IMG/VR virus record: IMGVR_UViG_3300025120_012241 | Coordinates: 1 to 43,682 of that record | From: a virus | Reading direction: 5' to 3' (one strand) | Length of the DNA stretch: 43,682 nt | In this document: positions 15,126 to 40,813 of the stretch, piece by piece | Layout: every line of letters starts with the position of its first letter | How positions within the stretch are numbered: position 1 is the first letter of the stretch | The notes under the pieces: generated by a model | The model's database searches: none | What the model saw: the letters and a program-made list of their open reading frames with translations, nothing else | Told to the model about the DNA's origin: nothing | Made by a program: the position numbers and the translations under genes

Positions 15126-15411
15126 CGGTGGTCTCCTGCTGTAACATCTCAAAGATGTCTTCGCGGTCTGTGTCTGTTAAGCCAGTGTCACCAGCCTGTT
15201 GCTTGTGAATAAGGCCTGAGATCTTCACTAGCTGCTCGTTGGAGCGTTGCAGGGTCTCCACATACTTAGCTGCTACGGAGCCCACCTGCGTGTGCCTCTC
15301 CTCATCCTTAGAGAGGTATCGCATCACATCGTCTAAGAGTTCTTTGGTGATCTCGCGGTCATCTTGTATGTTATTAATCGCTGTCTCAAGGTAGTGATCT
15401 AAATCTTTCAT
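15115..15411 (-). CDS. Small helical protein of unknown function
   Basis: 98 residues, charged and almost wholly helical (EITKELLDDVMRYLSKDEER; ETLQRSNEQLVKISGLIHKQ), suggesting a coiled coil. The ATG overlaps the stop of the sigma factor gene by 4 nt (ATGA), implying translational coupling, and the end overlaps the hub lysozyme gene by 11 nt. There is no signal peptide, membrane segment or catalytic motif. The position between late sigma and hub genes does not fix a role; a sigma-associated factor or a tail chaperone are both possible. Unrecognised. Confidence 0.65.
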   Translation of the reverse strand: MKDLDHYLETAINNIQDDREITKELLDDVMRYLSKDEERHTQVGSVAAKYVETLQRSNEQLVKISGLIHKQQAGDTGLTDTDREDIFEMLQQETTDGG

Positions 15412-16673: not shown

Positions 16674-16874
16674 TTATTCCTCCTCGTTTTCCTCAAAATC
16701 TTCTTTAATTTTGACTAGAGGTGGATTCATGACTACCAAACCTTCTTCTGAAAGTCTAAATTTAAACCCTTTCAAAACTGGAATGATATCCGACTGTTCC
16801 ATTAAAGACTTCTGGAGCGCCATCATCAGAGCACCTAGTGCTTGGTCTGACATCAACATATCTTTATTACTCAT
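16674..16874 (-). CDS. Small acidic protein of unknown function
   Basis: 66 residues, preceded by AAGGAGAAAATA, a strong ribosome binding site. The N-terminal half is helical and Met-rich (MLMSDQALGALMMALQKSLM), the middle is beta-like (FKFRLSEEGLVVMNPPLVKI) and the end is acidic. The start overlaps the last gene of the glycan island by 8 nt, so it is in the same transcript. It and the next three genes are probably phage core genes rather than glycan genes. Unrecognised. Confidence 0.65.
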   Translation of the reverse strand: MSNKDMLMSDQALGALMMALQKSLMEQSDIIPVLKGFKFRLSEEGLVVMNPPLVKIKEDFEENEEE

Positions 16875-17703
16875 TATTTTCTCCTTTGCTTATATTAAAG
16901 CATCTTTTTAGACCATCTAAAATATTAGTTTTAGATGACCACCCTAAATTATATAAACCGCTCGCGTCTGCTTCGCTATGTAGAATATCTCCGGGACGCT
17001 GTGGACCTACGGCCCACTGTACATTCTGTATTGTATCAATAAAATTCTTGATCTCTACCAGAGATACCGATTCACCTGAACCTACATCAAATGAGGCACC
17101 ATTGAAGTTCTTTTTATAGTTGGCACAAAATATATTGGCTTCGATTACATCCTCTACATATATGTAATCTCTTGTTTGACTACCATCGCCATCTATTCTC
17201 AAAGGCTTAGATTGTCGTACCATCTCCATCCAAGCAGATATAACTGTAGAATAGGCGCCGCCATATGGTTGATCTTCAGAATAGACATTAAAATACCTTA
17301 AACTAACCGTATCTAGACCATATAAATCTGAGTATAATTTGCACTCTTTTTCGCTCATTAGTTTGTGCATACCATACGGAGAGGTAGGCCCTGAATCATC
17401 ACCGTACACAGCGGCTGAGGAAGAGAACACAACTCTCTTAACCCCTTGTTTTTTGGCCCATTCTAATACTTTTGAGGTTCCAAGTACATTATGCTTTAAT
17501 GTGTAAGAGGGGTGCTTGACTGAATATTCGACACTTGGAAGTGCAGCCATGTGAAATACCACATCAACCTTCTCGTCTGGGAGTTGATCAATAATATCGT
17601 GCCCGTCTTTAAGATCGATACCTATTGTTTGTTCAACAGGTAATGCATTATAAAGTTTTGAACCTATAAATCCTTTATAACCTGTTACAAGATACTTTTT
17701 CAT
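16867..17703 (-). CDS. NAD-dependent sugar epimerase/dehydratase (extended SDR, GalE-like)
   Basis: 278 residues, a little shorter than usual for GalE-type enzymes. The Rossmann motif GYKGFIG is at residues 8-14 and the acidic residue after beta-2 (GIDLKDG) favours NAD(H). The catalytic set is VFSSSAAVYG around 92-101 and Y110-x3-K114 (SPYGMHKL). YFNVYSEDQPYGGAYS and GDGSQTRDYIYVEDV are typical of UDP- or GDP-sugar epimerases and dehydratases. It probably interconverts a nucleotide sugar for the island. The exact substrate (4-epimerisation, dehydration or reduction) cannot be told. It is the last gene of the glycan run, after fcl. Confidence 0.85.
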   Translation of the reverse strand: MKKYLVTGYKGFIGSKLYNALPVEQTIGIDLKDGHDIIDQLPDEKVDVVFHMAALPSVEYSVKHPSYTLKHNVLGTSKVLEWAKKQGVKRVVFSSSAAVYGDDSGPTSPYGMHKLMSEKECKLYSDLYGLDTVSLRYFNVYSEDQPYGGAYSTVISAWMEMVRQSKPLRIDGDGSQTRDYIYVEDVIEANIFCANYKKNFNGASFDVGSGESVSLVEIKNFIDTIQNVQWAVGPQRPGDILHSEADASGLYNLGWSSKTNILDGLKRCFNISKGENNE

Positions 17704-17708
17704 CGCGT

Positions 17709-18647
17709 TTAAATTCCCCTCGCTACACTATAGTTTTCTTCAAACCACTCACATACTAGCTGCAAAGATTTGCTAAAATCTGTATATTCTTCTTGTGTCC
17801 AGCCCAGATCTATAAGATTTTTATTACTTGATGGTTTTCTAAACTGTCCGGGTGGGCCAGAGGTGTCCCATATAATATCACCTTTAAAATTATATATATT
17901 GGATATTATGTTAGCAACTGTCTTGATAGAGTGTTCCTCTGTGCTGCCTACATTTATTGGGTATGGATTATCATAGTTTTTCAATAAAAATAATATTATT
18001 CTTGCCATATCTCCAGCATAAGTGAACTCTCTTAGTGGTGTTCCATCACCCCATAGAACAACTGATTTGTTATCTCTTTTAGCTTCGTAAAATTTTCTAA
18101 TCATAGCAGGAATAACGTGAGAATTTTCTAAATCAAAGTTGTCATGAATTCCAAATAAGTTATTTGGTATAATAGTAATAAAATTGCACCCAAACTGTTC
18201 TCTATATGATCTTGATTGCACATCCAGCATTCTCTTGGCATACGCATAACCATAGTTAGAGTGGTGTGGTTGGCCAGAATGAATTTGTTCCTCTGTTAGT
18301 GGATAAGTTGCATCATCAGGGTAAACACAAGTGCTAAGAACCGATAGTGCTTTCTGGACTTGGTATTTCCTGCAACATTCTAGCACATTTGAGTTAATCA
18401 TAATATTTTCATAGAAAAACTCCCCCAAGTTATCCATATTGGCCTTGATTCCGCCCACCCTACCTGCTAAGTGAATAACAACTTCTGGCTTATGAAACTT
18501 AAAAAGCTTCTCGGCTTGGGTTTTATTTCTTAAATCAGCATCTTTAGTAGAAGCATATATTGCACTTGGGAACTGCTTCTGCAATGCTTTTCCAAGCATT
18601 CCGGTGCCGCCGGTTACTAAAACTTTCTTATTCAACAAATCTATCAC
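17709..18647 (-). CDS. fcl: GDP-L-fucose synthase (GDP-4-keto-6-deoxymannose epimerase/reductase)
   Basis: 312 residues from a GTG at 18647 that overlaps the gmd stop as GTGA; a TTG 15 nt upstream is the alternative. The Rossmann motif VLVTGGTGMLG lies near residue 10 and LAGRVGGIKANM near 60, the latter highly typical of GDP-fucose synthases. The active-site Cys is in LSTCVYP (about Cys107), with Y134-x3-K138 in YGYAYAKRM. The enzyme performs 3,5-epimerisation and NADPH reduction of the Gmd product to GDP-L-fucose. Placement straight after gmd completes the pathway. The GT10-like gene in the same island is the likely consumer. Confidence 0.93.
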   Translation of the reverse strand: MIDLLNKKVLVTGGTGMLGKALQKQFPSAIYASTKDADLRNKTQAEKLFKFHKPEVVIHLAGRVGGIKANMDNLGEFFYENIMINSNVLECCRKYQVQKALSVLSTCVYPDDATYPLTEEQIHSGQPHHSNYGYAYAKRMLDVQSRSYREQFGCNFITIIPNNLFGIHDNFDLENSHVIPAMIRKFYEAKRDNKSVVLWGDGTPLREFTYAGDMARIILFLLKNYDNPYPINVGSTEEHSIKTVANIISNIYNFKGDIIWDTSGPPGQFRKPSSNKNLIDLGWTQEEYTDFSKSLQLVCEWFEENYSVARGI

Positions 18648-19609
18648 AGCTTTTTCATCCAACTTTCTATCATCTCATCCAACATAGAATGAAAAGTATA
18701 CTCTGGTTTCCACCCTAAGACATCTCTTGATCTTTGAGAGTCGCCCTTTAAATATTTTAACTCTTCAGGTCTCATAAATTTTGGATTTTGCACAACATAA
18801 TCTTCCCAGTTCATATCTAGTTTCCTAAAAACATACTCTACCAAGTCTCTAACAGACCATGTTTCTCCTGTTGATACAACCCATTCGTCTGCTATATCAT
18901 GATTGATTATTTTATGCATTGCGCGGACGTAATCTTTTGAATGACCCCAATCTCGATGAGAATCAAGATTACCAAGTTCTAACTTATCGCGCAGGCCTTT
19001 CTTTATTTCCACTGCGGCTTTTACCACTTTGTTTGTCACAAAATTTGAGCCTCGTCTAGGGGACTCATGATTAAACAAGATACCATTACATGCATGCAAT
19101 CCATAAGCATGCCTATAATGCCTCACAAGGTTAAATGCTAACAGCTTTGCACAGCCATATGGGCTAACAGGCTTCATAGGAGTAGTCAGTCGTTGTACCC
19201 CGTCATCGTCAACAGAGTTACCAAACATCTCAGATGAACTAGCTTGATAGAACTTAGCCTCGGGGGCGAATAATCTATAAACTTCTAAAAGGTTTAAAAC
19301 AGCCAACCCATTAGTTTGTATAGTAAAGGATGGTATGTCAAAACTGATGCGTACATGACTCATTGCGGCTAAATTATATATTTCATCGGGCTGCACTTTT
19401 AACATGATGTTTGTTAAGGAAGCAGTGTCTAACATATCTCCGTAGTATGTATGAATTTTATCATTTAGGTGAGTTATGCGACTATCTTGATTTTCTGCTA
19501 CCGAAGAACGTCTGATAATCCCGTGAACTTCATATCCTAAATCTAATAGGTATTCCGCTAAATAGCTACCGTCCTGACCGCTAATGCCGGTTATAAGTGC
19601 TTTTTTCAT
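18644..19609 (-). CDS. gmd: GDP-mannose 4,6-dehydratase
   Basis: 321 residues. The opening ALITGISGQDGSYLAEYLL is diagnostic, with the GxxGxxG cofactor motif at about 8-14. Further hallmarks are NLAAMSHVRISF, SSSEMFG (about 124-130), SPYGCAKLLAFN with Y151-x3-K155, and LFNHESPRRG, in which Gmd binds GDP-mannose. It is slightly shorter than E. coli Gmd (about 373 residues), as is common in marine bacteria and phages. It makes GDP-4-keto-6-deoxymannose for fcl. The ATG overlaps the previous stop by 4 nt, with GGAG upstream. Since GDP-mannose synthesis genes are absent here, the substrate must come from the host or from elsewhere in the genome. Confidence 0.95.
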   Translation of the reverse strand: MKKALITGISGQDGSYLAEYLLDLGYEVHGIIRRSSVAENQDSRITHLNDKIHTYYGDMLDTASLTNIMLKVQPDEIYNLAAMSHVRISFDIPSFTIQTNGLAVLNLLEVYRLFAPEAKFYQASSSEMFGNSVDDDGVQRLTTPMKPVSPYGCAKLLAFNLVRHYRHAYGLHACNGILFNHESPRRGSNFVTNKVVKAAVEIKKGLRDKLELGNLDSHRDWGHSKDYVRAMHKIINHDIADEWVVSTGETWSVRDLVEYVFRKLDMNWEDYVVQNPKFMRPEELKYLKGDSQRSRDVLGWKPEYTFHSMLDEMIESWMKKL

Positions 19610-20199
19610 GTTTTAAAAATCTCCATTTTTCTTAAGTCTGGCCAATCTTCTATGGTCCATTTTCTTGGTTCTGTCTGTTTTGCTACAGAGAGCTTCTTTA
19701 GCCCTAGTTCGGCTGTTTCAGGAGTCATATAATAATGATACCCTATCATATCGATATTTTGTTCTCGCCAAGGGATATTTGGTAGCCTGCCATCATATGA
19801 CATTTTTTTCAAATCAGAGGCTGCTTGCGGATCATCAGTTAAGATTATCCCACCACGGCCTAAACTTAAATGTTTTTTGTATTGGAAGCTTAGACACATA
19901 AAAGTATCCGCTATATAACTATCTTTTCTCCATAGCACTGCTGCATCAGCGATATTAGTATCTTGGAAAAAATAATATTCTTCCCATCTTTCCTCTCTCC
20001 ATTCCAGTGGTATTGACAATTTATTTGCTAGAAATGGAACAGAGAGGTAGGTATTTGCTGGGATATTTATCTTTTTTGCGTTTTGGCGACGTAAGCACAA
20101 TTCTATGGCATGAGTACAAGAGTCAGTGGCGACAGCATATGTAGACCCAAAGAACTTAGCCACTTCTTTTTCAAATTGGTTGACCACTTCAAAACTCAT
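19606..20199 (-). CDS. Short DegT/DnrJ/EryC1/StrS-type sugar aminotransferase
   Basis: 197 residues, about half the usual 370-400. The N-terminal opening (FEKEVAKFFGSTYAVATDSC), the PLP-ring Asp region (TNIADAAVLW, Asp84) and the PLP-lysine motif (SFQYKKHLSLGRGGIILTDD, Lys108 or 109) are all kept, so the cofactor site appears complete. The family's C-terminal domain is mostly absent. It ends in a normal stop overlapping gmd by ATGA, and the frame shows no sign of a break. These enzymes aminate keto sugars on nucleotide carriers. The short form may need a partner or be a naturally compact type; activity is uncertain. Confidence 0.75.
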   Translation of the reverse strand: MSFEVVNQFEKEVAKFFGSTYAVATDSCTHAIELCLRRQNAKKINIPANTYLSVPFLANKLSIPLEWREERWEEYYFFQDTNIADAAVLWRKDSYIADTFMCLSFQYKKHLSLGRGGIILTDDPQAASDLKKMSYDGRLPNIPWREQNIDMIGYHYYMTPETAELGLKKLSVAKQTEPRKWTIEDWPDLRKMEIFKT

Positions 20200-20720
20200 C
20201 CCTTAAAGACCACTCCATTAAGCTCAAGGCATTTTACGTTGTAGTCCGCGCAAGTCTTTCTAACACGCTCCTTCAACTGTAAGAATAGATCAACATCGTT
20301 CTGAACATCCGTGTAAAGGTCTTCCGCGTCTAACATAATATATCGAACACAGTCAGTCTTGAATATTTCTTCTAAACCAATAACACCTTTTACCGTTTCA
20401 ATTTTTGGACAAAAACTCACATGCTTTGGTAGGACGCTAGTAATCATGTTTACTTCTGAAGGTGTCTCGATGTTTGATACTGCAAAATATTTTATGTTTT
20501 TGTATTTAGACATTGCTTCTAAAGCATCAGGTACATGTAAGGTTGGTGTTGGTGGCTTACTTCTCCCTTTTGGATAGTCTAAAAAAATATCATGCTTAGT
20601 ATTTAAGAAACTATCAAGTTGAACTTTATCTTTTACATGTGCCATATTAATTCTAATCACGACATCTTTCACATCTTTAAACTGTTGTAAGTTTAATAAG
20701 TGGTTAGATATAAGTAACAT
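20196..20720 (-). CDS. Compact HpcH/HpaI (CitE-like) aldolase/lyase superfamily protein
   Basis: 174 residues against about 250-290 for the family. Visible signatures are VVIRINMAHVKDK (the conserved Arg-Asn strand), DIFLDYPK (equivalent to the 'LPK' strand), and FCPKIETVKGVIGLEEIF followed by IMLDAEDLYTD. The Glu in KIETVKG and the Asp in AEDL match the two metal ligands of HpaI/CitE enzymes, which handle pyruvate or acetyl-type substrates. The first barrel strands appear to be missing. The start has GGAGTTACAA upstream and lies within the preceding cupin gene. In a sugar island it might form or break a keto-acid sugar. This is inference from fold motifs, not a family match I can prove. Confidence 0.55.
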   Translation of the reverse strand: MLLISNHLLNLQQFKDVKDVVIRINMAHVKDKVQLDSFLNTKHDIFLDYPKGRSKPPTPTLHVPDALEAMSKYKNIKYFAVSNIETPSEVNMITSVLPKHVSFCPKIETVKGVIGLEEIFKTDCVRYIMLDAEDLYTDVQNDVDLFLQLKERVRKTCADYNVKCLELNGVVFKG

Positions 20721-21147
20721 TTGTAACTCCTTTTAATCTATCTTCAGGTACTATATTGTCTACTCTAAAAGTATCACCCTCGTAATCACAACCTCCTCGC
20801 GGACCTTCTCCAAAAACAATAAATTTATTGCCTTCTGGCGTGATTACTAGTGCGTGTACTTCATTAGGTGGGGTTGAAACTAAGTCGCCTTTTACGGCCA
20901 AGACCATCTTGGCAGACTCAGGTGAATCTAAATCTTTATACCAATATTCCAAAGACCCCTCCAGCATCAACATATGTTGGGTGCTTTTTTTATGATAATG
21001 GTTTCCCCTAAGAACATCAGGGGCGGATCCTACAATAGCAACATGGTTTATACTTTCATTGTAAAAAATATCTGTTATTGTTCCTCTAATGTCTGTATGT
21101 GATTCTAGTGGTTCTGGTACGTCTCGCCACACATTTCTAATCTTCAT
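20704..21147 (-). CDS. Cupin protein, RmlC/WxcM-type sugar epimerase-like
   Basis: 147 residues forming one cupin domain. Key stretches are VLRGNHYHKKSTQHMLMLEG (histidine-rich strand pair like the RGxHxH motif of RmlC/FdtA enzymes), then YWYKDL and LVSTPPNEVHALV. The opening (LESHTDIRGTITDIF) resembles the N-terminus of dTDP-4-keto-sugar 3,5-epimerases and 3,4-isomerases. A role in isomerising a keto deoxy-sugar fits with the aminotransferase and methyltransferase next to it. The usual catalytic His-Asp pair cannot be confirmed by eye. AGGAAAAAGA precedes the ATG. Confidence 0.72.
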   Translation of the reverse strand: MKIRNVWRDVPEPLESHTDIRGTITDIFYNESINHVAIVGSAPDVLRGNHYHKKSTQHMLMLEGSLEYWYKDLDSPESAKMVLAVKGDLVSTPPNEVHALVITPEGNKFIVFGEGPRGGCDYEGDTFRVDNIVPEDRLKGVTNVTYI

Positions 21148-21155
21148 TCTTTTTC

Positions 21156-22340
21156 CTACGGTAAAATAAATTTTGTCTTTTTATTAATACTTCGAATATT
21201 TTCTTTCACTCTCTCAGAAATATTCCAAGATAATATTAGTGCATACACTTCATCATATTCGTTGAATATCTCGTCACCTACGATGGGGATCCTTGTAATG
21301 GGGGTATACTTTCCTTGCTTGTGCTCAGAAGCGTCGGTAATGTAATCTAAAGTTTTATAATCTAAATTATAATAGTTTAAAAACGTATTAGCTTTTGCTG
21401 CTGCTCCTACTCCTATTATATTATAACCCATTGTTTTCACTTTGTAAAGCTCAAAAAGCAAATTATTTCTTTTATTTTCAAGGTTTTTCATGAAATATCG
21501 ATAAGTCTTCTCTTCAAACAATCCATACGAAGTCTCTGTTTTTATCATATCTAAAGTCTTATTCAGCATTCTGGGCTCTCCCGAGGTTTTATTGGCATAA
21601 ATTCTCAGTGAACCTCCATGATAATCAACAACTTCAATATCAAATATTTCAAATCCAAAACGAGCTAGAAGATTGTATGAGTATTTCACGGTAAAGTAGG
21701 TAACATGCTCATGATATATTTGATCAAATTTGTTATCGCATATAGTGTGATACCAGTAAGGCAACTCAAAAACAAAACAGCCATCTTCTTTCAATAGATT
21801 TGAAACGCCTCTCATAAAATCTTCTGTGTCATTCGCATGATTAACTACGTTGTTAGCTACAATCAGATCTGCAAGGCCTTCCTGTTCCTTAATGACATCA
21901 CTAGTTGCACTATTAAAGAGCATAGTATAGGTTTTTATACCTCTGGTCGCCGCTAGCTCTGACATATACCTCGAAGGATCAACCCCTACTATATTGTGTC
22001 CTTTCATCTTAAATTGTTCGGATAAAAAGCCGTCGTTTGAACCAATCTCCACAATCTTTTTTGTCGTTTTAGTTTTTGTTTTCTCTAAAACTTCTTTTGA
22101 ATACTTTATCCAATGATTCTTTGCAAATTCAGAATTAGAAGAAGTGTATGAATAATCATATAAGTTATATCTGTCATCATCTATTGTACTAATACCAAGA
22201 CGAATCTCACCGGTGCTCTTATTAAGAAAGCATTCCAACGGATGGATTGGTTCAGACATACTAAGAAGTTTTTTTGATACAAATGTATCTGCGAAAGGGT
22301 GCATTCCTAAATCTATTATTTTAACATATTCGTCTTGCAT
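21156..22340 (-). CDS. SAM-dependent sugar C-methyltransferase-like protein
   Basis: 394 residues from the ATG at 22340, chosen over an upstream TTG because AAAAGGGGACTTGGTA precedes it. A SAM-binding Rossmann fold starts at KIVEIGSNDGFLSEQF (about residue 95). QIYHEHVTYFT is the family active-site hallmark of TylC3/EvaC-type C-methyltransferases, and the C-terminal Rossmann-like domain (YNIIGVGAAAKANTFLNYY) is also present. Those enzymes carry an N-terminal four-Cys zinc site; here only one Cys (ECFLNKS) remains, so that site appears lost. It probably methylates a keto deoxy-sugar carbon, giving a branched sugar. The ATG overlaps the beta-helix gene stop by one base. Confidence 0.8.
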   Translation of the reverse strand: MQDEYVKIIDLGMHPFADTFVSKKLLSMSEPIHPLECFLNKSTGEIRLGISTIDDDRYNLYDYSYTSSNSEFAKNHWIKYSKEVLEKTKTKTTKKIVEIGSNDGFLSEQFKMKGHNIVGVDPSRYMSELAATRGIKTYTMLFNSATSDVIKEQEGLADLIVANNVVNHANDTEDFMRGVSNLLKEDGCFVFELPYWYHTICDNKFDQIYHEHVTYFTVKYSYNLLARFGFEIFDIEVVDYHGGSLRIYANKTSGEPRMLNKTLDMIKTETSYGLFEEKTYRYFMKNLENKRNNLLFELYKVKTMGYNIIGVGAAAKANTFLNYYNLDYKTLDYITDASEHKQGKYTPITRIPIVGDEIFNEYDEVYALILSWNISERVKENIRSINKKTKFILP

Positions 22341-23482
22341 TACCAAGTCCCCTTTTTTCTATTCGCGAATCTTACTCTAGTTTTCCTTTCACCAGAGTCA
22401 TATGGATTCACAAAAAGAGATGTCTGATTTGTTTTATAGTATTCCTCTAAATAAGAATTTAAAAAAATATGCCTTGCTGTTGTTTGATTTACATTCCTTA
22501 GATTACATTGATCAAACACCGTCACCACTTCATTTAAACTACCTTCATCAACATCCTCTTGGGTTGCTAAACTAAAATATCTTGTTGTTTTAGTTTTTAT
22601 GTCAATACAACCTAACATATCGATTAAAGTATCTGAATGTTTTATGGTAGGTGTTGCTGCAACTTCGTCGTAGGTTGGTTCGTTATGCATTATGATACCG
22701 TTATTTTCTTCTTGTGTGGAGGATTTTTGATAGTGTCCAGATATGTTATTATAAATATCGAAAGATATTTTGTTATAAGATGGTCCACTAATCGTCGTGA
22801 TCGCTGCTTTTTTAAAACTACCATACACTACTGAATTACTGTTTGGCGAGTTAGATTGTATCATGTTACCAACAGTTGATTCCATGACACAACCAAGCAC
22901 CCAAATAGAACCCCTGTTTATTCCCTCTGTGTACACAAGGTTGTTTCTTGTCCCTAAAACCGTCTCATAGTGTGTTGATATAATACAGATCTCGTTATTA
23001 TAGCCGTGGGCGCCAATAAAATTTGATTCTACGCTGTAAGTACTCTTTGCATGGCAACCAATGATAGCATGACAATCTCTCAAACTACGCTGGTTTAGCG
23101 AAATAATATTTTTCTTATTGCTTTCAAAATAGCACCCATAACATTTTAAAGTGCCTTTTTGTTGGTTTATAAAAGAAATATACCAATCGCGAGACTTAGG
23201 TGGGTCTATAAAGTTTACATTGTACAAATTTAAGTTACACTTTAAACTGTCTAAAATAATTTGATTAGATAAGCTTGTGTTAAAAATATTAACTTCTGAT
23301 GCATTCTTAAAAGTAAGCGCCGGCTTTGTTGGATCCTGTAACCTTATTGAAAAACCATTGCCATCTATTATTACTCTTTTATCATAAGTATAAGGAAAGA
23401 CCAATGTATCTTTAATCAGTAAGTCCTCATTAAGTGAAATATTTATAGACTGATTGTTTTTAATCGCCTGTTTGATATTCAC
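22340..23482 (-). CDS. Right-handed beta-helix (pectate-lyase-like fold) protein inside the glycan island
   Basis: About 380 residues from a GTG at 23482 with AGAGGAGATCTCGG before it; a longer ATG frame would lie deep in the upstream cupin gene. The sequence is a run of short beta-strand repeats: NEDLLIKDTLVFPYTYDKRV, IIDGNGFSIRL, then many N-rich turns such as LNLYNVNFIDPP and LKCYGCYFESNKKN. This resembles parallel beta-helix domains of phage tailspikes and polysaccharide lyases. It has no signal peptide. It might be a glycan-binding or glycan-modifying protein, or a virion protein carried with its decorating enzymes. No active-site triad could be identified. Confidence 0.62.
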   Translation of the reverse strand: MNIKQAIKNNQSINISLNEDLLIKDTLVFPYTYDKRVIIDGNGFSIRLQDPTKPALTFKNASEVNIFNTSLSNQIILDSLKCNLNLYNVNFIDPPKSRDWYISFINQQKGTLKCYGCYFESNKKNIISLNQRSLRDCHAIIGCHAKSTYSVESNFIGAHGYNNEICIISTHYETVLGTRNNLVYTEGINRGSIWVLGCVMESTVGNMIQSNSPNSNSVVYGSFKKAAITTISGPSYNKISFDIYNNISGHYQKSSTQEENNGIIMHNEPTYDEVAATPTIKHSDTLIDMLGCIDIKTKTTRYFSLATQEDVDEGSLNEVVTVFDQCNLRNVNQTTARHIFLNSYLEEYYKTNQTSLFVNPYDSGERKTRVRFANRKKGTW

Positions 23483-26002: not shown

Positions 26003-26004
26003 TG

Positions 26005-27572: not shown

Positions 27573-28696
27573 AAATCCCCCGGATAGATATGATCAACAT
27601 CCTCTCTGCTGACTGCCAACCGAATAGCTTGACCAGTTCCAGTTGCAGTAATTTTATGTTTCTTGTTTCTCTCTATATAAACTAAATCGCCCTTCTTAAC
27701 AGTTAGGGCTCTGCCCTCAACAAGCCATTCCCACTCTCCTTGCAGGATATGCCACCATTCGTCCCAGTCACTGTGGTAATGTAATCTGTTGCCTTCGCCC
27801 GGCATTTGAGCAATCAAAGTAGCGCATGTGGATTTCGAGTTAACCAAAGTGTGAGACCAACACCTATCTTTAGGATTGTTTGTCATGATTTCTTCGATAG
27901 ACGCTATTTCCTTATTATATTCATTCATAGTATTATTATCGACACCATCTTCTAAAAGAACCCTGAGACGGTTTGAATCAAAAGTTTGTCCAGATTTATA
28001 GTACTGAGGAGGTGTTTGAACTAGATTTGAAAGATGTTTCGCTGTTACCTCTGCAAGCTGAAAATCTTCCTCATTGTCAATGTCGATGGTTGAATACCCT
28101 TTTAAAGAAAACGTATCGATTTTGCCTTCTCCTCCATGATAAGCAGCCTTATACCTTTTCATATTTTGCATGTAATTACTTTTTCTCCACCCCATAAGAG
28201 AACATGCATAGACCTGAACTGGGTTTACTTCTTGGGAAGGGGGAGTAATTTTCTTTTGATCAAAGTTTATAGACATGTTGTTATACATTGATTCTATTTG
28301 TTGGTCAACAACAGATACTAAGGTATCACATCCGGTGTCTTTAATCTTTTTAACAAAATTTTGTATTTCTACAGGAGTAATAAAAGGAGAAGTGGGTAGT
28401 ATTTGAATCAAGTAGTCACAGTCAGTATTTTGCAAAAAATCATCTGCAAAATGGTCATTAGTTACTTCATCGGATGCAAGATATTCACTTCGTTTATAAA
28501 ATTTAATACCATGACTATTTGATATTTCCTCTAACAACTCTGATTCCGAGTTTACATAAATATCATCAAAACAGTCTGCCTCTTTAGCTGCCTCAATCAC
28601 ATAAGAAATCAAAGGTTTGTTATTAAGCAAACGTATGTTCTTTTTAGGTATTCTTTTGCTGCCGAGTCTGGCGGGTATCATTGCGATTACTTTCAC
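27569..28696 (-). CDS. CMP-nonulosonate-type cytidylyltransferase fused to a cupin domain
   Basis: 375 residues, starting with GTG (AAAGGAGATAGAA upstream). Residues 1-225 form a NeuA/PseF-like nucleotidyltransferase: AMIPARLGSKRIPKKNIRLL at 5-24 is the CTP-binding signature, followed by LIQILPTSPFITP and YSTIDIDNEEDFQLAE. Such enzymes activate sialic-acid-type keto sugars with CMP. Residues about 295-372 form a cupin with LHYHSDWDEWWHILQGEWEW and KKHKITATG. The normal length is about 230, so the cupin is an added domain. No NeuB-type synthase is in the window. A GT29 sialyltransferase-like gene lies 11 nt upstream, which supports an acidic keto-sugar product. Confidence 0.87.
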   Translation of the reverse strand: MKVIAMIPARLGSKRIPKKNIRLLNNKPLISYVIEAAKEADCFDDIYVNSESELLEEISNSHGIKFYKRSEYLASDEVTNDHFADDFLQNTDCDYLIQILPTSPFITPVEIQNFVKKIKDTGCDTLVSVVDQQIESMYNNMSINFDQKKITPPSQEVNPVQVYACSLMGWRKSNYMQNMKRYKAAYHGGEGKIDTFSLKGYSTIDIDNEEDFQLAEVTAKHLSNLVQTPPQYYKSGQTFDSNRLRVLLEDGVDNNTMNEYNKEIASIEEIMTNNPKDRCWSHTLVNSKSTCATLIAQMPGEGNRLHYHSDWDEWWHILQGEWEWLVEGRALTVKKGDLVYIERNKKHKITATGTGQAIRLAVSREDVDHIYPGDL

Positions 28697-28707
28697 TTCT
28701 ATCTCCT

Positions 28708-29403
28708 TTATAAAAAGTACATTTTATCATATTTTGGGTTTTTTAATATCTCTTTAAAATATTCATCTATTACAATTCTATCATCATTAGGATACACTTC
28801 ATGTTTAAAAAACTTATATTGGGAGTCTGGATCATGGCGATCTCTCTTGTTAGTGGCTAAGTGTCTTTCAAATTCTTCTTTAGAACCGCCTGATTGTAGA
28901 TATCTTGGATCATATAAAGTTCTAAAAAAGTCCAAACCAAATAAGTGTACTTTCCCAATATCGTGTGACAATATATCCATTAAGGTTGTTGTCCCAGAGT
29001 TCGGTCTGAATTTAACGTATTCACGAATAGGGTAGTAGACTTCATCTTTCATCCATCTCGTTGGAAGTATATTATTCAAATGGGATGATTTTTCTGGATA
29101 TGTGAAGTATTCTGACTTTGGATAAGTGCTACACACATATTTCACTCCGGATCTTTTCCATAAATCACCATCAATGGGTCCACCCGCATCAGAAAAACCA
29201 TCTAAAGTATTATACAATACATCTGTTCTTTTCCCAACGTCGCTTTCTCCTCTAGGATCAACAGGTAATGCACGGTTCAGTCGAACTACAACGTCATAGG
29301 ATTCTATTAAGTCCCCTAAGCCCTTCTCAAATAATGAAGCGCCGGATACAACGAGTGCAACACGTTTTCCTTTCATATAATCTCTGTAACTTTCGACTAT
29401 CAT
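28708..29403 (-). CDS. Sialyltransferase-like protein, GT29-type motifs
   Basis: 231 residues. The N-terminal part reads RVALVVSGASLFEKGLGDLI, then ESYDVVVRLNRALP and SDVGKRTDVLYNT. This follows the large sialylmotif of GT29, in which eukaryotic enzymes bind CMP-sialic acid (G-x-ID-x-HD-VIR-N...DVGxKT). RPNSGTTTLMDILSHDIGKV followed by HLFGLDFF resembles the small sialylmotif. It is shorter than animal enzymes (about 300-400) and lacks their membrane anchor. With the CMP-sugar synthetase directly downstream, transfer of a CMP-activated acidic sugar is the natural reading. The ATG overlaps the GT25 gene stop by 4 nt. Confidence 0.78.
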   Translation of the reverse strand: MIVESYRDYMKGKRVALVVSGASLFEKGLGDLIESYDVVVRLNRALPVDPRGESDVGKRTDVLYNTLDGFSDAGGPIDGDLWKRSGVKYVCSTYPKSEYFTYPEKSSHLNNILPTRWMKDEVYYPIREYVKFRPNSGTTTLMDILSHDIGKVHLFGLDFFRTLYDPRYLQSGGSKEEFERHLATNKRDRHDPDSQYKFFKHEVYPNDDRIVIDEYFKEILKNPKYDKMYFL

Positions 29404-30080
29404 CTTTTGCCATCCAGTGAGGAGGAATATATGGTTTCAGATCCTTGGTGCGCTAACAAGGGGTGTAACCAATATGACTTAAGGTCATGTTTATAGACAA
29501 AATAATTTATTTCAAAGTCTATTGGACCGCAGAAAAAGTGTAAACCATTTAGCATTATTTCTGCCGCTCTTCTAGAAATGAGATACAGTCCAGTTCCTCT
29601 TGTCAAGTGATTTTCATAAAAATATTGTCCATCCAAAATGTTAGAAGGAAATAGATCAGATGCCGCACACATGTGAACTATGTCTGCATCTTCTGGCATT
29701 GTTGCAAAGTATTTTTCAAATAAGCTATTATAATCAGGATGAAAAAATGTATCATCTTCAGATATCAAAGCATATGGCTCACCTGTCTCTAAAAACATTC
29801 TATATGCTTCTCTATGTTTCATGACTAAAGAAGTGACTGGTTTACTTAATACCCTGTATGTTGGGGGTGAAGGATAGATAGGAAGCTGCATTCTTTCATA
29901 CCACAAAGATGTTTCCAAAACATCAAAAACATATTCTTCTGTAAGTTCATCAGCATCAAAATTTAATATCCATTGGGCCTTCTGTATTCCTACTCTGGAC
30001 AACTCGGACTCAAGATGCGGTTTTCTTTCGGTTAGCTTTTTACAATGACAAATATAAAAAGGCATTTCTTTAGCTTTCAT
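29400..30080 (-). CDS. Glycosyltransferase, GT25 (LgtB/LPS) family
   Basis: 226 residues. The opening FYICHCKKLTERKPHLESEL is the family's conserved 'I-x-L-x-R-x-R' start. ALISEDDTFFHPD carries the acidic donor-binding motif (E-D-D), and GTGLYLISRRAAEIML with GPIDFEINYF gives the C-terminal hallmark, where Asp acts in catalysis. GT25 enzymes usually add galactose or glucose from UDP-sugars to LPS or collagen. It lies in the glycosyltransferase block at the upstream end of the island. Confidence 0.85.
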   Translation of the reverse strand: MKAKEMPFYICHCKKLTERKPHLESELSRVGIQKAQWILNFDADELTEEYVFDVLETSLWYERMQLPIYPSPPTYRVLSKPVTSLVMKHREAYRMFLETGEPYALISEDDTFFHPDYNSLFEKYFATMPEDADIVHMCAASDLFPSNILDGQYFYENHLTRGTGLYLISRRAAEIMLNGLHFFCGPIDFEINYFVYKHDLKSYWLHPLLAHQGSETIYSSSLDGKR

Positions 30081-30083
30081 TTG

Positions 30084-30791
30084 TTAATCTCGAATCAATT
30101 GATCAATATGGTTTTTGTATTTGGAATAAGGTCTTGGCATGTGGGCATCGATATATTCATCACTTATTAACTTTTCATGAGAAAAGACCCAGTTGCTTCT
30201 ATCAAGTCTTCTTCTAGCTAGACCATGCTGCCAACCTCTTAACTGGCTGTGTAGTGTTATGCCTTCTTCATCTATAGCTTCGCCAAGGTCTGCCGAGAAA
30301 CACATTTCATCAGTATTCCAGCCGTGACCTTTATTCCACCAATCTAACATTTTCTTTTCCATACTAGTAATGTCAATAACCCCTGTGATCTTTGAAAACG
30401 TTGAGCCGTGACCAGCCAAATAACATATTGGATGTCTAGTAAAAAAAGCATTGCCCAAATGAGCATCTGACGAGAGACTTGTAAAATCATCTTTATTCTT
30501 TATTGCTTTTAAGGCTTCGACAAAATATTCTTTATTTAATGGCATCATATCTATGTCAGATGTCATACAAATTCGATTTGGATATCTATAGGGCGACAAA
30601 ACTCGACAAATTTGTGCTTGATTTCCATATGGAATAACAGAATCCGGAACATATTTATTTTTATCACTTATTATTGTGTAATCAACTTCAAAACCCATTT
30701 TTTCCCATGCTCTTATTACAATATCGGAAAAATCACTATAGTATGGATTTTCATCGCTAGCTAATATAACTATGGGTTTGTCATTTATCAT
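30084..30791 (-). CDS. Putative glycosyltransferase with DxD motif
   Basis: 235 residues from the ATG at 30791; an ATG 18 nt upstream is possible. It starts with KPIVILASDENPYYSDFSDI, and the acidic motif SDIDMMPLNKEYF at about residues 83-95 is of the DxD type that binds a metal and nucleotide sugar in GT-A enzymes. LGNAFFTRHPICYLAGHGST and a Trp-rich stretch near 160 follow. No CAZy family can be assigned by eye. It sits between two other probable transferases, whose overlap and order suggest stepwise assembly of one glycan. Confidence 0.68.
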   Translation of the reverse strand: MINDKPIVILASDENPYYSDFSDIVIRAWEKMGFEVDYTIISDKNKYVPDSVIPYGNQAQICRVLSPYRYPNRICMTSDIDMMPLNKEYFVEALKAIKNKDDFTSLSSDAHLGNAFFTRHPICYLAGHGSTFSKITGVIDITSMEKKMLDWWNKGHGWNTDEMCFSADLGEAIDEEGITLHSQLRGWQHGLARRRLDRSNWVFSHEKLISDEYIDAHMPRPYSKYKNHIDQLIRD

Positions 30792-31443
30792 AATATCTTC
30801 GCAATGCATTTTGGTGTTCTATAATAGTTTTTTCATTTTCATCGAACACCTGTCCAACAAATTCTAATCCTTGCCTCCGAGATGGAAAAGGCTGACCATC
30901 AAAGAATTCATCGTGAGTCATAACTTGATCAGGTGTTAAAGTTGGAAAAATTAGTTCTGCAAAAAATTTGTAATCAGTACCGTATGCATCTTCTTGGGCA
31001 AAATTATCAATCAAGTTTTTTATATTACTGATTGCACCTGATTTTGCACCCCACATGCCACCCAGTATTGGATACCCGTGGTGAGGATGATCTCTCATAA
31101 TATGCATCTTTTTATCTGACTCAAGCCACTCATCTACAGCCATTTTCTCTCTAATACTTAAGCGAGAATCAGTATCTCTAGATATCATGACATCGACTGA
31201 ATCTTCAGAGGCTGGTAGAAACCTCCAGAACATGCCGCGCCAGTCTCCGAACTCCAACCTCTCCACGATTTGTACATTGTCGTGCCTTTCTAGTTGTAAG
31301 ACTGCTTGGCTTGGTACACTTTGTCCGATGTAAAACCTGCACACCCAATCAGGGTATATTTCTTTTGCCAACTCAGCATTTCGAATAGCTCCAATCAAAT
31401 ATTTTGGATCTTGGCCCCAGAGTGAAAAAGATATTACTTTCAT
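30781..31443 (-). CDS. Putative glycosyltransferase with RDTDSR motif
   Basis: 220 residues. The start FSLWGQDPKYLIGAIRNAEL and the motif MISRDTDSRLSIREKMAVDE (DxD at about residue 89) are typical of GT-A fold transferases of uncertain family seen in capsule and LPS clusters. The His-rich HIMRDHPHHGYPILGGMWG follows, another conserved patch of this group. The ATG overlaps the stop of the GT4-GT2 gene by 4 nt, and the gene overlaps the next one by 11 nt. Donor and acceptor are unknown. Confidence 0.72.
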   Translation of the reverse strand: MKVISFSLWGQDPKYLIGAIRNAELAKEIYPDWVCRFYIGQSVPSQAVLQLERHDNVQIVERLEFGDWRGMFWRFLPASEDSVDVMISRDTDSRLSIREKMAVDEWLESDKKMHIMRDHPHHGYPILGGMWGAKSGAISNIKNLIDNFAQEDAYGTDYKFFAELIFPTLTPDQVMTHDEFFDGQPFPSRRQGLEFVGQVFDENEKTIIEHQNALRRYYDK

Positions 31444-33389
31444 TGATACTTTTTAAATACCTTTTTTTCTTCTTCTCTTTTCCAAGCAAAGTTCTCTGGG
31501 TTGGTGGAAATCCCTTTCGGATTAAAATAATATAAACCCAATACACTGTTTATTTTTTTGAACTTACTCCCCTCTGTAGCGCCACGAAGCCATAGCTCCC
31601 AGTCACCAGCGGATTTATAGCTTTCATCAAAATAGCCGTATTTATCATGATATGCTCTTCTCCACATCGGTGCAGCATGGGGCATATTGGTCATTTTGAG
31701 ATTTGCAAGAGAAAAGTCTGGGAAGTTATAGCGACGACCATCAGAGCTATTTTCTTCGAAAGTTTCGTTAGGCTCATGTGTAATAGACATATCAGCATAT
31801 ACTAAGTCCACATCCTCATTTACAAATAGTTCTTTTGCGTGTCTTTCAAGCGCGTTTGAGGCCTTTCTGTCATCCAAATTTGCATTTGTGATATACTTTC
31901 CTGTTGATAACTTAATACCCATATTCCACACAGCATATAATCCCGGATCTTTCTCTAGCTTTTTGTATGTAATATTATTTGGGTATTTCTTTATGTATTC
32001 TTCTATAACAGTCTCTTCGTTGCCCGGAGAATTTGCATTAATCAAAATAAGTTCACATTTATCTTCAAATATGGTTTGGTTTGTTATATCTTCTAGAAAC
32101 AATTTTATAAAATCATCCCCATCATAAACTGAAGTTATAATAGAAATCTTAGGCAGGTCATCTATAGAGATTAGGTGTGCTGGATCGGGGCTGTGGATCA
32201 GATTTGATAGATTCCTGTGTTGTTTGGACCATCCAAATTCTTTCTTAACCCATTTTTGCAAATATTTAGCTTTTTGTAACCATTTATCATAATTTTTTCT
32301 AACTTGTCTAAGACGTATTTTGTAAGAACCCTCCGTAGGATAACACCATACAGTGTCTTTTTCTAAAACGCCGGGCCACACAGCACTTTCATGAATTGGT
32401 CCCAGTGTGTAATCCACGTTAGCAAAATAAGGTTTTAATTTGTTTTTCTTAGATTTTGTTTGTGCTGGTGCATATAGAAAATCGGTCTGTCCGGACCAAG
32501 CTGGAGCGATGATTGGTAGTCCACTGTATGCAGCTTCAAAAAGTGGTAACCCAAATCCTTCTCCGTGTGTTAGTGAAACTAGACATTTTACTTTTGGGTG
32601 TTTATACAGCGAATGTATTTCTGATTCGGACATATCACCATGTAGGAGATAAACTTTGCATTTTCTTTCTTCAATCTCTGGTATTGATTGAGATACTACC
32701 TCTTCAATATATTCCCTATCTACAACAGAGTTATTTTTTAAACTAGTTTTTAAAATAAGTCCTACTTCTTGATCATGGTTCTCTTCAACAAACCATCTAA
32801 TGAGGTTTGCCATATTTTTTCTCGGACCCCACTGTGAGATAGCCAAATAGTTAAAATCATGCTCAAGATTTAGAGAGATCTCAGCAGCCTCATGGTCTTT
32901 TACGGGATATCCAGCAATGTCAACTGGTGTCTCACATCGTAAATGTACAGGGGCACCTGTCTCACTATTGTGCCCTTGGTACTCAGTCATAACAAAACCA
33001 TTCTTTGCATGCTCAGAAATGGTGATAATCCTATCCATCTCATTACATTTTTGTAACCAAACAGATGAAACTTTATTTGTTTCAATGCCGGCTGTAACAC
33101 CAATATTAATTGAGGCAATTTTTTGCCATTCATTGGGTATGGTAACTTGAACAGATATATCATATGGTAAATTTTGTTGCAGGTGGCGTGCGCCGGCAAA
33201 TACTTTAGAATCAATCCATTCTCTTTCCTCATTATCAATAGCTAACCAACCTGTCTCTCCCCATCCAGTTGGTAAGATATGAATATCTAGTTCTGACTCC
33301 TGTAGCCGAAGGGCGCGCAGAACAAAGCGAGTGTGCTCGCCGTATCCTGATTGTGAAAGCGCCGGGCCTCTAACTAATACTTTTTTCAC
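31440..33389 (-). CDS. Two-domain glycosyltransferase, GT4-like plus GT2-like
   Basis: 649 residues from a GTG at 33389 that overlaps the preceding stop (GTGA) with AAGGAGG upstream; a TTG 48 nt upstream lies deep inside the neighbour. Residues 1 to about 400 form a GT-B transferase. It opens VLVRGPALSQSGYGEHTRFV, and HGEGFGLPLFEAAYSGLPII is the GT4 donor-site E-x7-E motif. Residues about 410-645 form a GT-A (GT2) domain, with ISIITSVYDGDDFIKLFLED, the acidic motif ANLDDRKASNAL and a late SAGDWELWLRGA. Fusions of this type build repeating or branched glycans in one chain. Both domains look complete. Confidence 0.85.
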   Translation of the reverse strand: MKKVLVRGPALSQSGYGEHTRFVLRALRLQESELDIHILPTGWGETGWLAIDNEEREWIDSKVFAGARHLQQNLPYDISVQVTIPNEWQKIASINIGVTAGIETNKVSSVWLQKCNEMDRIITISEHAKNGFVMTEYQGHNSETGAPVHLRCETPVDIAGYPVKDHEAAEISLNLEHDFNYLAISQWGPRKNMANLIRWFVEENHDQEVGLILKTSLKNNSVVDREYIEEVVSQSIPEIEERKCKVYLLHGDMSESEIHSLYKHPKVKCLVSLTHGEGFGLPLFEAAYSGLPIIAPAWSGQTDFLYAPAQTKSKKNKLKPYFANVDYTLGPIHESAVWPGVLEKDTVWCYPTEGSYKIRLRQVRKNYDKWLQKAKYLQKWVKKEFGWSKQHRNLSNLIHSPDPAHLISIDDLPKISIITSVYDGDDFIKLFLEDITNQTIFEDKCELILINANSPGNEETVIEEYIKKYPNNITYKKLEKDPGLYAVWNMGIKLSTGKYITNANLDDRKASNALERHAKELFVNEDVDLVYADMSITHEPNETFEENSSDGRRYNFPDFSLANLKMTNMPHAAPMWRRAYHDKYGYFDESYKSAGDWELWLRGATEGSKFKKINSVLGLYYFNPKGISTNPENFAWKREEEKKVFKKYQ

Positions 33390-34654
33390 GATACCTCCTT
33401 GAGTTCCCAAGACTTGTAACCTTTTCTGGTTTCCCAAGAACCTAATCTGTTTGTAATGTCATCAATAAGGTTTAACCACTTTTCTTGAAAACCTTTGTAA
33501 TCATAATTCATCCTTACATGCTGGATTCCTTTTTGCCCCATCGCTTCTCTCTCTTCTTTAGACATATTGTAGAAAGTTCTAAGAGAATCAATAAAATCTT
33601 TCTCACTTATTCTATCTTCATAAATGTATGGGACCGTCTGGGATCCAATCAGAGCCTTGGCTGATGGCTCAATCCCGATACCAAACCATTCATTACCATC
33701 AGTTACTTGTTCTTGGAGGCCTCCTGTCATATTAACAATAATAGGTGTTCCACAGGACAGTGATTCAAGAGTGGCCAAACCAAAACCTTCGGCGTCCGAA
33801 ATATTAATCGTGCAATCTGCCATATTATACATCATTGAAAGACCTTCTGCTGGCATTTTATTAGTAGATAATACTACGCGGCCGTCTGTTATATTCATAT
33901 CTTCGATCATCTGGCGGAGATCTTGTCCGTTGGGGTCTTTTGGATCTGTATGCATTATTAGACAAACATTTTCTGGGCCCACTTCTTCTGCAAATTTATT
34001 AAACCAGTGTAAGAGAGTGCCTGAGTGCTTACGACGTGCATTTCTATTGTTCCAAAAAAATACTGTGCGGCCTGCATGATCTGGGAAAGTTTCTTTGATA
34101 AAACTGTCTACCTGATCTTGTTCGATTTTATAAAATATTTTATCATTTACAGCATGAGGAATATAATGATTCTCCACTTCAGGGGCTACTTTATTTACTA
34201 TATCGTGGGTTACTTTTGAGATAGACGCTACCACATCTGTAGAACGATACCATTTAGCATTGAACTTAGGCGGCGGATAGTTGTCCCATACATGATAATA
34301 AACCATCGGTATAAGAGGTCGTACTTCATTTTCAATCTGCCACAGCCAGCCATAAAATCTTGGATCTGTCATAAACCAAAGTACATCTGGTTTCTCAGTC
34401 CACAAAATCGATCGAATACTTTCCGCTGATCCATATCCATCTACTGGGTACACAACCCAATCTTTTTCGCCCCATCTCTCATCTGAAATGAACTGTGGTT
34501 CATAACTTGGATGTTTAATCGCGCCTCCAAAACAAATAAAACGATATTTACCAGTTAAAATTAGTGTTTCAATAAAATTTTTAGTTTGGGTACCAACACC
34601 AGATGGTGCCATAGGGTGATCTGCTAGGACTAGGATTGTCTTTTTCTTATTCAT
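33386..34654 (-). CDS. Glycosyltransferase, GT4 family
   Basis: 422 residues. The N-terminus TILVLADHPMAPSGVGTQTK is a GT4-type glycine-rich acceptor loop. The C-terminal donor site is INISDAEGFGLATLESLSCG, followed by TPIIVNMTGGLQEQVTDGNE, with both conserved Glu residues. This is the first gene of the glycan island in transcription order, preceded by GAGGTTTAA. GT4 enzymes use UDP-, GDP- or ADP-linked sugars with retention. The sugar is unknown. Confidence 0.88.
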   Translation of the reverse strand: MNKKKTILVLADHPMAPSGVGTQTKNFIETLILTGKYRFICFGGAIKHPSYEPQFISDERWGEKDWVVYPVDGYGSAESIRSILWTEKPDVLWFMTDPRFYGWLWQIENEVRPLIPMVYYHVWDNYPPPKFNAKWYRSTDVVASISKVTHDIVNKVAPEVENHYIPHAVNDKIFYKIEQDQVDSFIKETFPDHAGRTVFFWNNRNARRKHSGTLLHWFNKFAEEVGPENVCLIMHTDPKDPNGQDLRQMIEDMNITDGRVVLSTNKMPAEGLSMMYNMADCTINISDAEGFGLATLESLSCGTPIIVNMTGGLQEQVTDGNEWFGIGIEPSAKALIGSQTVPYIYEDRISEKDFIDSLRTFYNMSKEEREAMGQKGIQHVRMNYDYKGFQEKWLNLIDDITNRLGSWETRKGYKSWELKEVS

Positions 34655-40805: not shown

Positions 40806-40813
40806 CAAAAAAA

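Follow-up and report, generated by a model that had tools for sequence, protein, structure and literature searches.

In pelagimyophages, a hypervariable host recognition cluster that includes the tail fibres lies between VrlC and gp14, and its glycosyltransferases have been explained as modifying the O-chain of the host (PMC7029224). On the capsid of the chlorovirus PBCV-1, N-glycans with a conserved core, virus-specific decoration and fucose are made in the cytoplasm (PMC7826918). The subject here is a run of 21 glycan genes, i01 to i21, in a virus record of 43,682 bp (IMGVR_UViG_3300025120_012241; "the window" denotes the whole of this stretch). The run represents a single allele at a hypervariable locus of fixed position, which has two constant glycosyltransferases. 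In the reading favoured here, to which a probability of roughly 55% is given, the locus serves glycan assembly in a large clade of T4-type phages and directs the cytosolic synthesis of a strain-specific glycan, most likely on a virion protein. A search of the literature, with subscription papers outside its scope, found no description of the locus in the sources, or parts of sources, that it reached.

Both cases, the pelagimyophages and the present one, concern marine T4-type phages with a large, non-syntenic island of glycosyltransferase and deoxysugar genes that varies between relatives. The position is different, however: the present island lies between a nuclease with two constant glycosyltransferases and a late sigma factor, rather than between VrlC and gp14. 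Divergence within one close pair of pelagimyophages was described there as gradual (PMC7029224), whereas here whole cassettes are replaced. With PBCV-1, the locus shares a virus-encoded and probably cytoplasmic pathway, a conserved core with variable decoration, fucose and a multidomain glycosyltransferase; as in the chlorovirus type of system, conserved core enzymes and virus-specific decoration enzymes occur without proteins of multiple transmembrane (TM) segments. The best PDB matches of i21 include the chlorovirus protein B736L. PBCV-1 is, however, a eukaryotic virus with an established acceptor, whereas the acceptor of the phage is putative, and chlorovirus glycan genes are not known to be gathered in one exchangeable locus.

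Bacterial O-antigen and capsule loci resemble the present one in their fixed place, constant flanks, exchangeable AT-rich centre and open gene pool, but the initiating transferase, flippase and polymerase of such loci were not found here. Classified by sequence, the locus thus appears to have the constant flanks and exchangeable centre of a Wzx/Wzy locus without its export and initiation genes. In Pelagibacterales, whole O-chain clusters are reported to be swapped rarely (PMC11898729). Two cultured phages, Flavobacterium phage immuto and Microcystis phage Mel-JY01, are members of the same locus type, with a nuclease, two glycosyltransferases and then glycan cargo; they are the closest named relatives of the window among 50,697 phage records, at ~28-32% protein identity. 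Both differ from the window (~30% identity) in having one extra gene between the nuclease and the glycosyltransferase. In Mel-JY01 the i21 match covers two annotated open reading frames (ORFs) and the sigma gene is ~77 kb away, while in immuto many other genes lie between the cargo and the sigma gene.

Architecture of the locus and exchange of its cassettes

The flanks of the island hold two baseplate wedge proteins (gp6 and gp25 type), a hub protein, a gp55-like late sigma factor, PhoH and a PD-(D/E)XK nuclease, and the window is therefore judged, on these genes, to be a fragment of a T4-type phage. The T4-type myophage markers found are homologues of gp6, gp25, hub and gp55 (phrog_219, phrog_261, phrog_196 and phrog_234, respectively). 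The original prediction of 21 consecutive minus-strand genes in a T4-like phage is borne out by the ORFs and by these flanks. The parts of the locus are as follows.

34662..35426, minus strand: left constant anchor, a PD-(D/E)XK nuclease, exo (PF12705, 4e-20; 42 related loci)
33386..34654, minus strand: i21, constant core GT4 glycosyltransferase (PF00534)
31440..33437, minus strand: i20, two-domain GT4+GT2 glycosyltransferase (PF00534 and PF00535)
16888..32234, minus strand: variable cargo, or cassette, comprising the GT2 half of i20 together with i01-i19 (at E 1e-10 unmatched in the DNA of L004+L070, whose flanks align)
16674..16874, minus strand: right constant anchor, a 66-aa protein (167 relatives, 80 kept)
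15408..16112, minus strand: gp55-like late sigma factor of the right flank (phrog_234, 6e-7)

Viral contigs searched with the nuclease yielded 42 loci, some of them duplicates. The nuclease gene is followed by i21, directly or past at most three ORFs, in 40 of the 42, and i20 comes next in 38. Among the exceptions, L033 ends at the contig edge, L015 and L031 stop before i20, and L042 is without i21 and i20 in the available stretch. A further 43 records were searched for i21; 37 matched, every one on the strand of the right anchor, while four of the remaining six are contigs that end too early and two (L045 and L046) are other phages. The cargo lies between the i21/i20 core and the small gene that precedes the gp55-like sigma gene. 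Merging gave 33 complete loci, four of these duplicates. In the window (WIN), L002, L059, L076, L036-L041 and L147 the right end was set at the sigma gene, the small anchor ORF being uncalled, and the window cargo was counted as 15,328 bp, its true value being ~0.8 kb shorter. The distance from i21 to the right anchor runs from 1.2 kb to 26.4 kb, and the cargo from none to ~25 kb and up to ~30 genes; the lower extreme in both cases is L027, which carries no cargo and in which i20 adjoins the right anchor. In the more distant phages L036-L041, i21 and i20 stand nearly directly before the sigma gene.

On the right, similarity to relatives picks up again at 16887, 13 bp ahead of the start codon of the 66-aa anchor, and this boundary is identical in the comparisons with L004+L070 and with L067. 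Inspection by eye of the 90 bp that precede the right anchor in many loci revealed no shared site; the late-promoter-like TATAAAT has 7 matches on the minus strand, a count given without a statistic. On the left, many relatives of i20 align to residues 1-414 only, the GT4 half, and the alignment to L004 stops within the gene at 32235. The GT2 half, by these alignments, therefore behaves like cargo, the GT4 half (about residues 1-414) being constant. The island had been drawn at 16867-34654; i21 and the GT4 half of i20 now belong to the constant core, which leaves ~16888-32234 as the variable part.

The loci L055 and L064 agree at 97.8% of nucleotides over 5,783 bp on the left, as far as 29 bp short of the i20 end, and at 98.0% over 1,848 bp on the right, from 94 bp before the right anchor. 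Their anchor proteins are 97-100% identical. Their cargoes, of 2.1 and 4.3 kb, align over 4% and have one matching protein pair, at 27%. Between the window and L004+L070, the nuclease and sigma factor are 98% identical in amino acids and the compared part of PhoH 99%, with i21 and i20 at just 65-68%; across the cargo (~15 kb) there is no DNA match at E 1e-10 and 1% is aligned at E 1e-8, and 2 of the 19 cargo genes of L004 have a window relative over 70% of their length, at 26% and 44%. L004 nevertheless has 17 of its 19 cargo genes colinear with those of L066, though the sigma factors and nucleases of these two are only 51-52% identical. The backbones of the window and L004 are close, and the difference between their cassettes is therefore the outcome of replacement on one of them.

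A set of close pairs was drawn from the complete loci by requiring a nucleotide identity of at least 78% in the sigma or nuclease gene, which gave 25 non-duplicate pairs from 15 loci. Cargo DNA, expressed as the aligned fraction of the first-named cargo, aligned over less than 10% in 20 pairs, over 12% in one and over 25-31% in three; L078 and L085, also one of the 25, have all cargo in common except for a 2.8-kb indel. L116 and L137 share 1,993 bp at 95.6%, their sole other alignment of at least 100 bp being 130 bp long. In 130 of 1,199 reciprocal shared cargo pairs, the similarity of the proteins exceeds that of the sigma factors by 10 points or more. On these alignments, cassettes are shown to be replaced whole or in part, and pieces of cargo are seen to transfer between phages. 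Comparison with other phages, which had been proposed with the original prediction, thus brought out gain and loss as well as whole-cassette replacement at a fixed place. A glycan synthesis and decoration operon was the right description in kind, but the operon is better seen as a single allele of a locus that is exchangeable and anchored by a constant core. This architecture and its exchange are well supported.

L045 and L046 are of another phage type, with no i21 and no sigma match, and have a block in which much of the window cargo finds relatives at 23-76% identity, among them those of i10 at 72-76% and of i05 at 64-74%. Going by the sequences of these two records, the cassette crosses phage groups.

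The pool from which cassettes are drawn was described from 784 cargo proteins, a set of locus-strand ORFs of 80 aa or longer from which identical ones, but not near-duplicates, had been removed. They come from 86 groups, 27 complete (265 proteins), 25 left-partial (178) and 34 right-partial (341); L045, L046, L147 and L148 are left out and five right-flank ORFs are included. At 30% identity they form 303 families, 202 of them singletons, with no plateau. A Pfam census of 142 representatives of these families matched 122 Pfam families, the commonest being hit by just 8 of the 142. Methyltransferases (up to 8 members), epimerases/dehydratases and glycosyltransferases (GT4, GT2, GT29 and GT11) are the most frequent, and DegT aminotransferases and formyl-, cytidylyl- and acetyltransferases are also frequent.

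The island is more AT-rich than its flanks, as it had seemed by eye: mean GC in the window is 0.363 for 19 cargo genes and 0.397 for 16 flank genes (Mann-Whitney p = 0.005). The cargo lies below its own flanks in all 26 complete loci with at least 2 kb of cargo (three duplicates among them), and across these 26 loci cargo GC climbs with the GC of the phage itself (r = 0.77). As cargo GC tracks that of the backbone and cargo moves between phages, the low GC is no sign of recent gain from bacteria; the pattern fits a long stay in the phage gene pool. The separate acquisition at which AT-richness had been taken to hint gives way to a view of the island as one allele among others, and a single acquisition from bacteria as the main history is rejected, since cargo GC follows backbone GC and close phages differ. 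By megablast the 21-gene island has no match in the phage records. A separate 94,499-bp contig, possibly from the same sample, carries all 21 genes at 99-100% protein identity; together with the relatives of the same arrangement it makes an assembly chimera unlikely.

Genes of the island and the CMP-sugar module

The 21 consecutive minus-strand ORFs, taken from a simple longest-ORF script, span 16867-34654. Overlap at most junctions had been claimed and was found at 15 of 20, although over a range of 4-95 nt rather than 1-20 nt, and the other five are gaps of 2-11 nt. In addition to i21 and i20, the genes are as follows.

30781..31443, minus strand: i19, glycosyltransferase of GT-A fold with a conserved SRDTDSR motif (predicted model, Foldseek, VIA-align)
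30084..30809, minus strand: i18, possible glycosyltransferase (DxD-like motif, by eye only)
29400..30080, minus strand: i17, GT25-like glycosyltransferase, weak (PF01755, 1e-4, below cut-off; PHROG_2835 glucosyltransferase, 5e-11)
28708..29403, minus strand: i16, GT29-like transferase, expected to use a CMP-sugar (PF00777, 29.5 bits, cut-off 23)
27569..28696, minus strand: i15, CMP-sugar synthetase-cupin fusion (PF02348, 2e-24, and PF07883; NeuA structures)
27171..27572, minus strand: i14, probable phosphatase (PHROG_1238, named phosphoheptose isomerase, 5e-12)
26005..27174, minus strand: i13, class-III aminotransferase (PF00202, 4e-62)
25394..26002, minus strand: i12, SIS isomerase, GmhA-like (PF13580, 28.7 against a cut-off of 27; TIGR00441 below cut-off)
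24717..25409, minus strand: i11, sulfotransferase (PF03567, 51.6 bits)
23891..24778, minus strand: i10, GT10-like fucosyltransferase, weak (PF00852, E 0.0094, below cut-off)
23460..23894, minus strand: i09, WbuC-family cupin (TIGR04366, over cut-off)
22340..23554, minus strand: i08, beta-rich protein without a family (low-confidence model)
21156..22346, minus strand: i07, sugar C-methyltransferase (PF08484, 1e-36)
20704..21147, minus strand: i06, cupin associated with polysaccharide synthesis (PF14667 exceeds its cut-off, Cupin_2 does not; matches the end of the WbcJ model)
20196..20720, minus strand: i05, HpcH/pyruvate-kinase-like barrel (faint Pfam matches)
19606..20199, minus strand: i04, mini DegT aminotransferase of 197 aa that retains the Lys expected to bind pyridoxal phosphate (PF01041; 13 aligned phages)
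18644..19609, minus strand: i03, GDP-mannose 4,6-dehydratase (PF16363, 2e-110, 369.7 bits)
17709..18662, minus strand: i02, GDP-L-fucose synthase (PF01370, 1e-55; GDP-L-fucose synthase PDB structures, 2e-81)
16867..17703, minus strand: i01, nucleotide-sugar epimerase (PF01370, 6e-47; PHROG_540)

The curated Pfam cut-off is exceeded by i01, i02, i03, i04, i06, i07, i11, i12, i13, i15, i16, i20 and i21. Against the narrower NCBIfam gmd model, i03 scores 373, below the cut-off of 415, and i15 is PseF-like in NCBIfam, also below cut-off. GDP-fucose synthesis, the CMP-sugar synthetase, aminotransferases, C-methyltransferase, sulfotransferase, SIS isomerase and cupins, all named in the original prediction, were recovered as profile or structure matches. 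It had also counted at least six glycosyltransferases plus GT10 and GT29-like enzymes, of which four are well supported (i21, i20 and the GT29-like i16 by Pfam, i19 by fold), two are weaker (i17, of GT25 type, and i10, of GT10 type) and i18 is unproven. The matches of i10 to fucosyltransferase structures have E values of 0.004 and 0.08, and those of i16 to PDB sialyltransferases only 0.45-0.69. For i18 there was no Pfam or PHROG match and nothing relevant in PDB.

No Pfam match was found for i19, but its model, with a predicted local distance difference test (pLDDT) score of 88.5, matches GT-A glycosyltransferases by both Foldseek and VIA-align; its counterpart in the closer relative L003 is at 80%. 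A relationship of i19 to A64R of PBCV-1, the top match in Foldseek, was rejected as this protein is absent from the 50 VIA-align matches listed, and its use in assigning the locus to a known type was dropped. Proteins related to i19 by predicted structure, at 25-31% identity, are encoded by giant viruses (Mimivirus LCMiAC01, Aureococcus virus and Iridovirus LCIVAC01) and by an uncultured phage. Two earlier labels stay putative. For i14, called a HAD phosphatase on the strength of a DxDG motif, there is no Pfam or NCBIfam match and only a PDB match at E 0.025; i08, called a beta-helix protein, matches no family, and its model (pLDDT 45.5) was too poor for a structure search. None of the 21 genes was recognised as a tail fibre by Pfam, nor were any of those compared with PHROGs (all but i02 and i03); i08 and i18 lack a family. 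The mini DegT family of i04 is mostly 195-207 aa long against a profile of 360 positions, and the lysine of its SF..K motif is retained in the 13 aligned phages, which include Flavobacterium phage immuto.

Relatives of i12, i13, i15 and i16 recur as a set. In L100 this comprises a GT29-like gene, a CMP-synthetase-cupin, a short-chain dehydrogenase (by eye), a 3-dehydroquinate-synthase-type cyclase, an aminotransferase and a SIS gene. The cyclase family is present in 3 of 32 phage records (G021, G039 and G048) and in both bacterial records, and is not in the window. Phage-encoded cyclases of this type lie in glycan cargo at L046:13025-14032 and L100:5313-6386. The latter is closest by sequence to 3-dehydroquinate synthases, and a C7-cyclitol might conceivably be its product.

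With the aminotransferase i13 as query, 11 loci were found in bacteria and one archaeal metagenome-assembled genome contig, sharing mainly the CMP-sugar part. An i15-like gene is present in 10 of the 11, directly adjacent in 7, and a SIS gene in 6. All three clusters examined, L150, L156 and L159, have the cyclase; two oxidoreductases accompany it in L156 and L159, and a Wzz gene is present in L156. The GT29 query, searched against genome contigs with two patterns only, gave 62 pattern matches and no relative. The same gene order in a bacterial chromosome would have spoken against the original prediction; within the scope of these two queries, mainly the CMP-sugar part was found there. By these relatives, the CMP-sugar module is of the bacterial surface-sugar type. 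L150 is a Thaumarchaeota-binned contig with phage-like CMP-sugar cargo (i13 58%, i15 53%, GT29-like 27%) and may be a virus contig within an archaeal bin.

Probable site of assembly and possible glycan acceptor

By hydropathy, 753 of the 784 cargo proteins have no TM segment, 30 have one and one has two, which is the maximum. As controls, E. coli K-12 Wzy and Wzx gave 6 and 9 segments. Searches for the flippase family PF01943 and the initiating-transferase family PF02397 covered 33 of the phage records, the two isolates included. PF01943 was found in none of the 33 (control positive in 13 of 14 genomes), nor was PF02397 (control positive in 9 of 14; PF00953 was not searched). Taken alone, these two absences are weak evidence, because two bacterial assemblies also gave none; the count of TM segments is the stronger test. 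The hydroxymethylase family PF00303 was matched in 0 of 31 metagenomic records (20 + 11) and in Mel-JY01 was likewise unmatched, the T4 control being positive; eleven of the 31 records measure 141-193 kb, though not one is known to be a complete genome, G020 belongs to a different type of phage and the window genome is incomplete. A PF00303 protein is present in immuto. A search for Tet/JBP, whose control was silent, was uninformative. Together, the TM, flippase, initiating-transferase and hydroxymethylase results speak for a direct transfer, in the cytosol, onto an acceptor that is soluble.

In the scheme proposed, i21 and the GT4 half of i20 would begin or build an inner core on one acceptor common to the clade. 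The cassette would make the activated sugars, GDP-fucose and a CMP-activated, probably amino, sugar, and its transferases, C-methyltransferase and sulfotransferase would extend and decorate the core, as their families suggest. The whole pathway would run in the infected cell's cytosol and use no phage flippase, polymerase or initiating transferase. The acceptor would most likely be a virion protein, to which the constant core transferases and the chlorovirus precedent point, and the released phage would bear a strain-specific sugar coat, much like a bacterial serotype. Exchange of cassettes would presumably occur by recombination in the conserved anchors. Cytosolic action is likely; a virion acceptor is about an even bet against the host surface and the other explanations together. 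A fuller version, whose chances are put a little below even, speaks of phages with serotypes, in which the virion would carry a heteroglycan whose inner core is constant and whose outer part is exchangeable, made wholly in the cytosol from cassettes swapped in a marine-phage pool of hundreds of families, some members having cyclase-derived sugars.

A second variable segment begins just past the sigma gene, with a hub-like protein and a very long protein.

13923..15152, minus strand: baseplate hub-like protein at the start of the second variable segment (phrog_196, 5e-23)

Proteins of this segment are 39.5-67% identical between L055 and L064 (39.5% for the hub-like protein), against 94-100% for their neighbours, and the hub-like protein of L004 matches that of the window at 26% over 39% of its length. 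Similarity of the cargo correlates with that of the downstream tail genes at rho 0.44 (87 non-independent pairs, six with much common cargo); this correlation is moderate and has exceptions, and is thus no more than a lead that singles out no acceptor. The window also encodes, at 5839-12894, a protein of 2,351 aa that belongs to no family; it lies between gp25 and the hub region, is very variable among relatives and is a possible adhesin or glycan acceptor.

Several points weigh against a virion glycan. The glycan, its acceptor and the enzyme activities are all predictions from genes; the exceptions to the cargo and tail correlation, L137/L140+L141 and L051/L053, are clear ones; and the Foldseek match of i19 to a PBCV-1 capsid transferase is unspecific, given its absence from the VIA-align matches listed. 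PF01943 and PF02397 were also missing from the bacterial single-cell assemblies G077 and G078 (1.5 Mb searched), one of which carries a Wzz gene in the examined cluster. Bacterial relatives of i12, i15 and i13 sit in surface-polysaccharide-type clusters, and the export enzymes of the host could be borrowed, with host lipopolysaccharide as the acceptor. These last points lead to an alternative in which the locus alters the host surface (O-chain or capsule) and blocks superinfection, its transferases using host lipid-linked precursors and the host exporting the product. The same role is proposed for the pelagimyophage glycosyltransferases (PMC7029224), and the sugar repertoire is similar to that of O-antigen loci. 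This alternative, the main rival, is considered less likely, however, as the 784 cargo proteins include no multi-TM protein (the maximum of two segments being reached once) and as neither PF01943 nor PF02397 was found despite a large glycan repertoire, the latter point being weak by itself. Bacterial Wzx/Wzy-type loci, as in K-12, usually bring their own matching flippase. Of the two acceptors named in the original prediction, the virion is thus favoured over the host surface, given that the searches for export and initiation machinery found none, though both are inferred.

The other explanations are much less probable than a host-surface role. An insertion hot spot at which auxiliary genes have loosely accumulated, without a single product, would account for the unsaturated pool of families with its many singletons, for the rarity of even the commonest Pfam family and for partial gains and losses such as those between L078 and L085. 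It is made improbable by the top 25 of the 122 Pfam families, nearly all of which are sugar-type enzymes and methyltransferases and fit one type of product, by the adjoining pair of glycosyltransferases, which is the same throughout, and by the joint recurrence of the CMP-sugar genes. Least probable, by a little, is that the glycan is placed on phage DNA as in T-even phages, against restriction. The core transferases are indeed constant and soluble, immuto encodes a PF00303 protein and DNA glycosylation is known from other phages, but PF00303 was unmatched in every metagenomic record searched and in Mel-JY01, and i21 resembles GT4 enzymes.

Neighbouring elements and implications

Elsewhere in the window, at 40811-41126 on the minus strand, lies a complete phage-borne transfer-messenger RNA (Rfam RF00023, 113.6 bits) with the tag ANNNNFVLAQAA. 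The 94-kb contig that contains the sequence of the window also carries a GroEL chaperonin gene (L171:1419-2969; phrog_5725, 3e-140).

The core transferases, together with the cultured phages immuto and Mel-JY01, make the question of the acceptor directly testable. Whichever reading holds, the anchors offer a simple means to find and type such loci. Should the locus act on the host surface instead, it would be a very large serotype-conversion system in phages. If its product is on the virion, the locus would be a phage counterpart of bacterial O-antigen diversity, which would matter for adsorption, for the stability of the virion and for its ability to evade recognition, and it would open up sugar enzymes, in the hundreds, that have yet to be studied.

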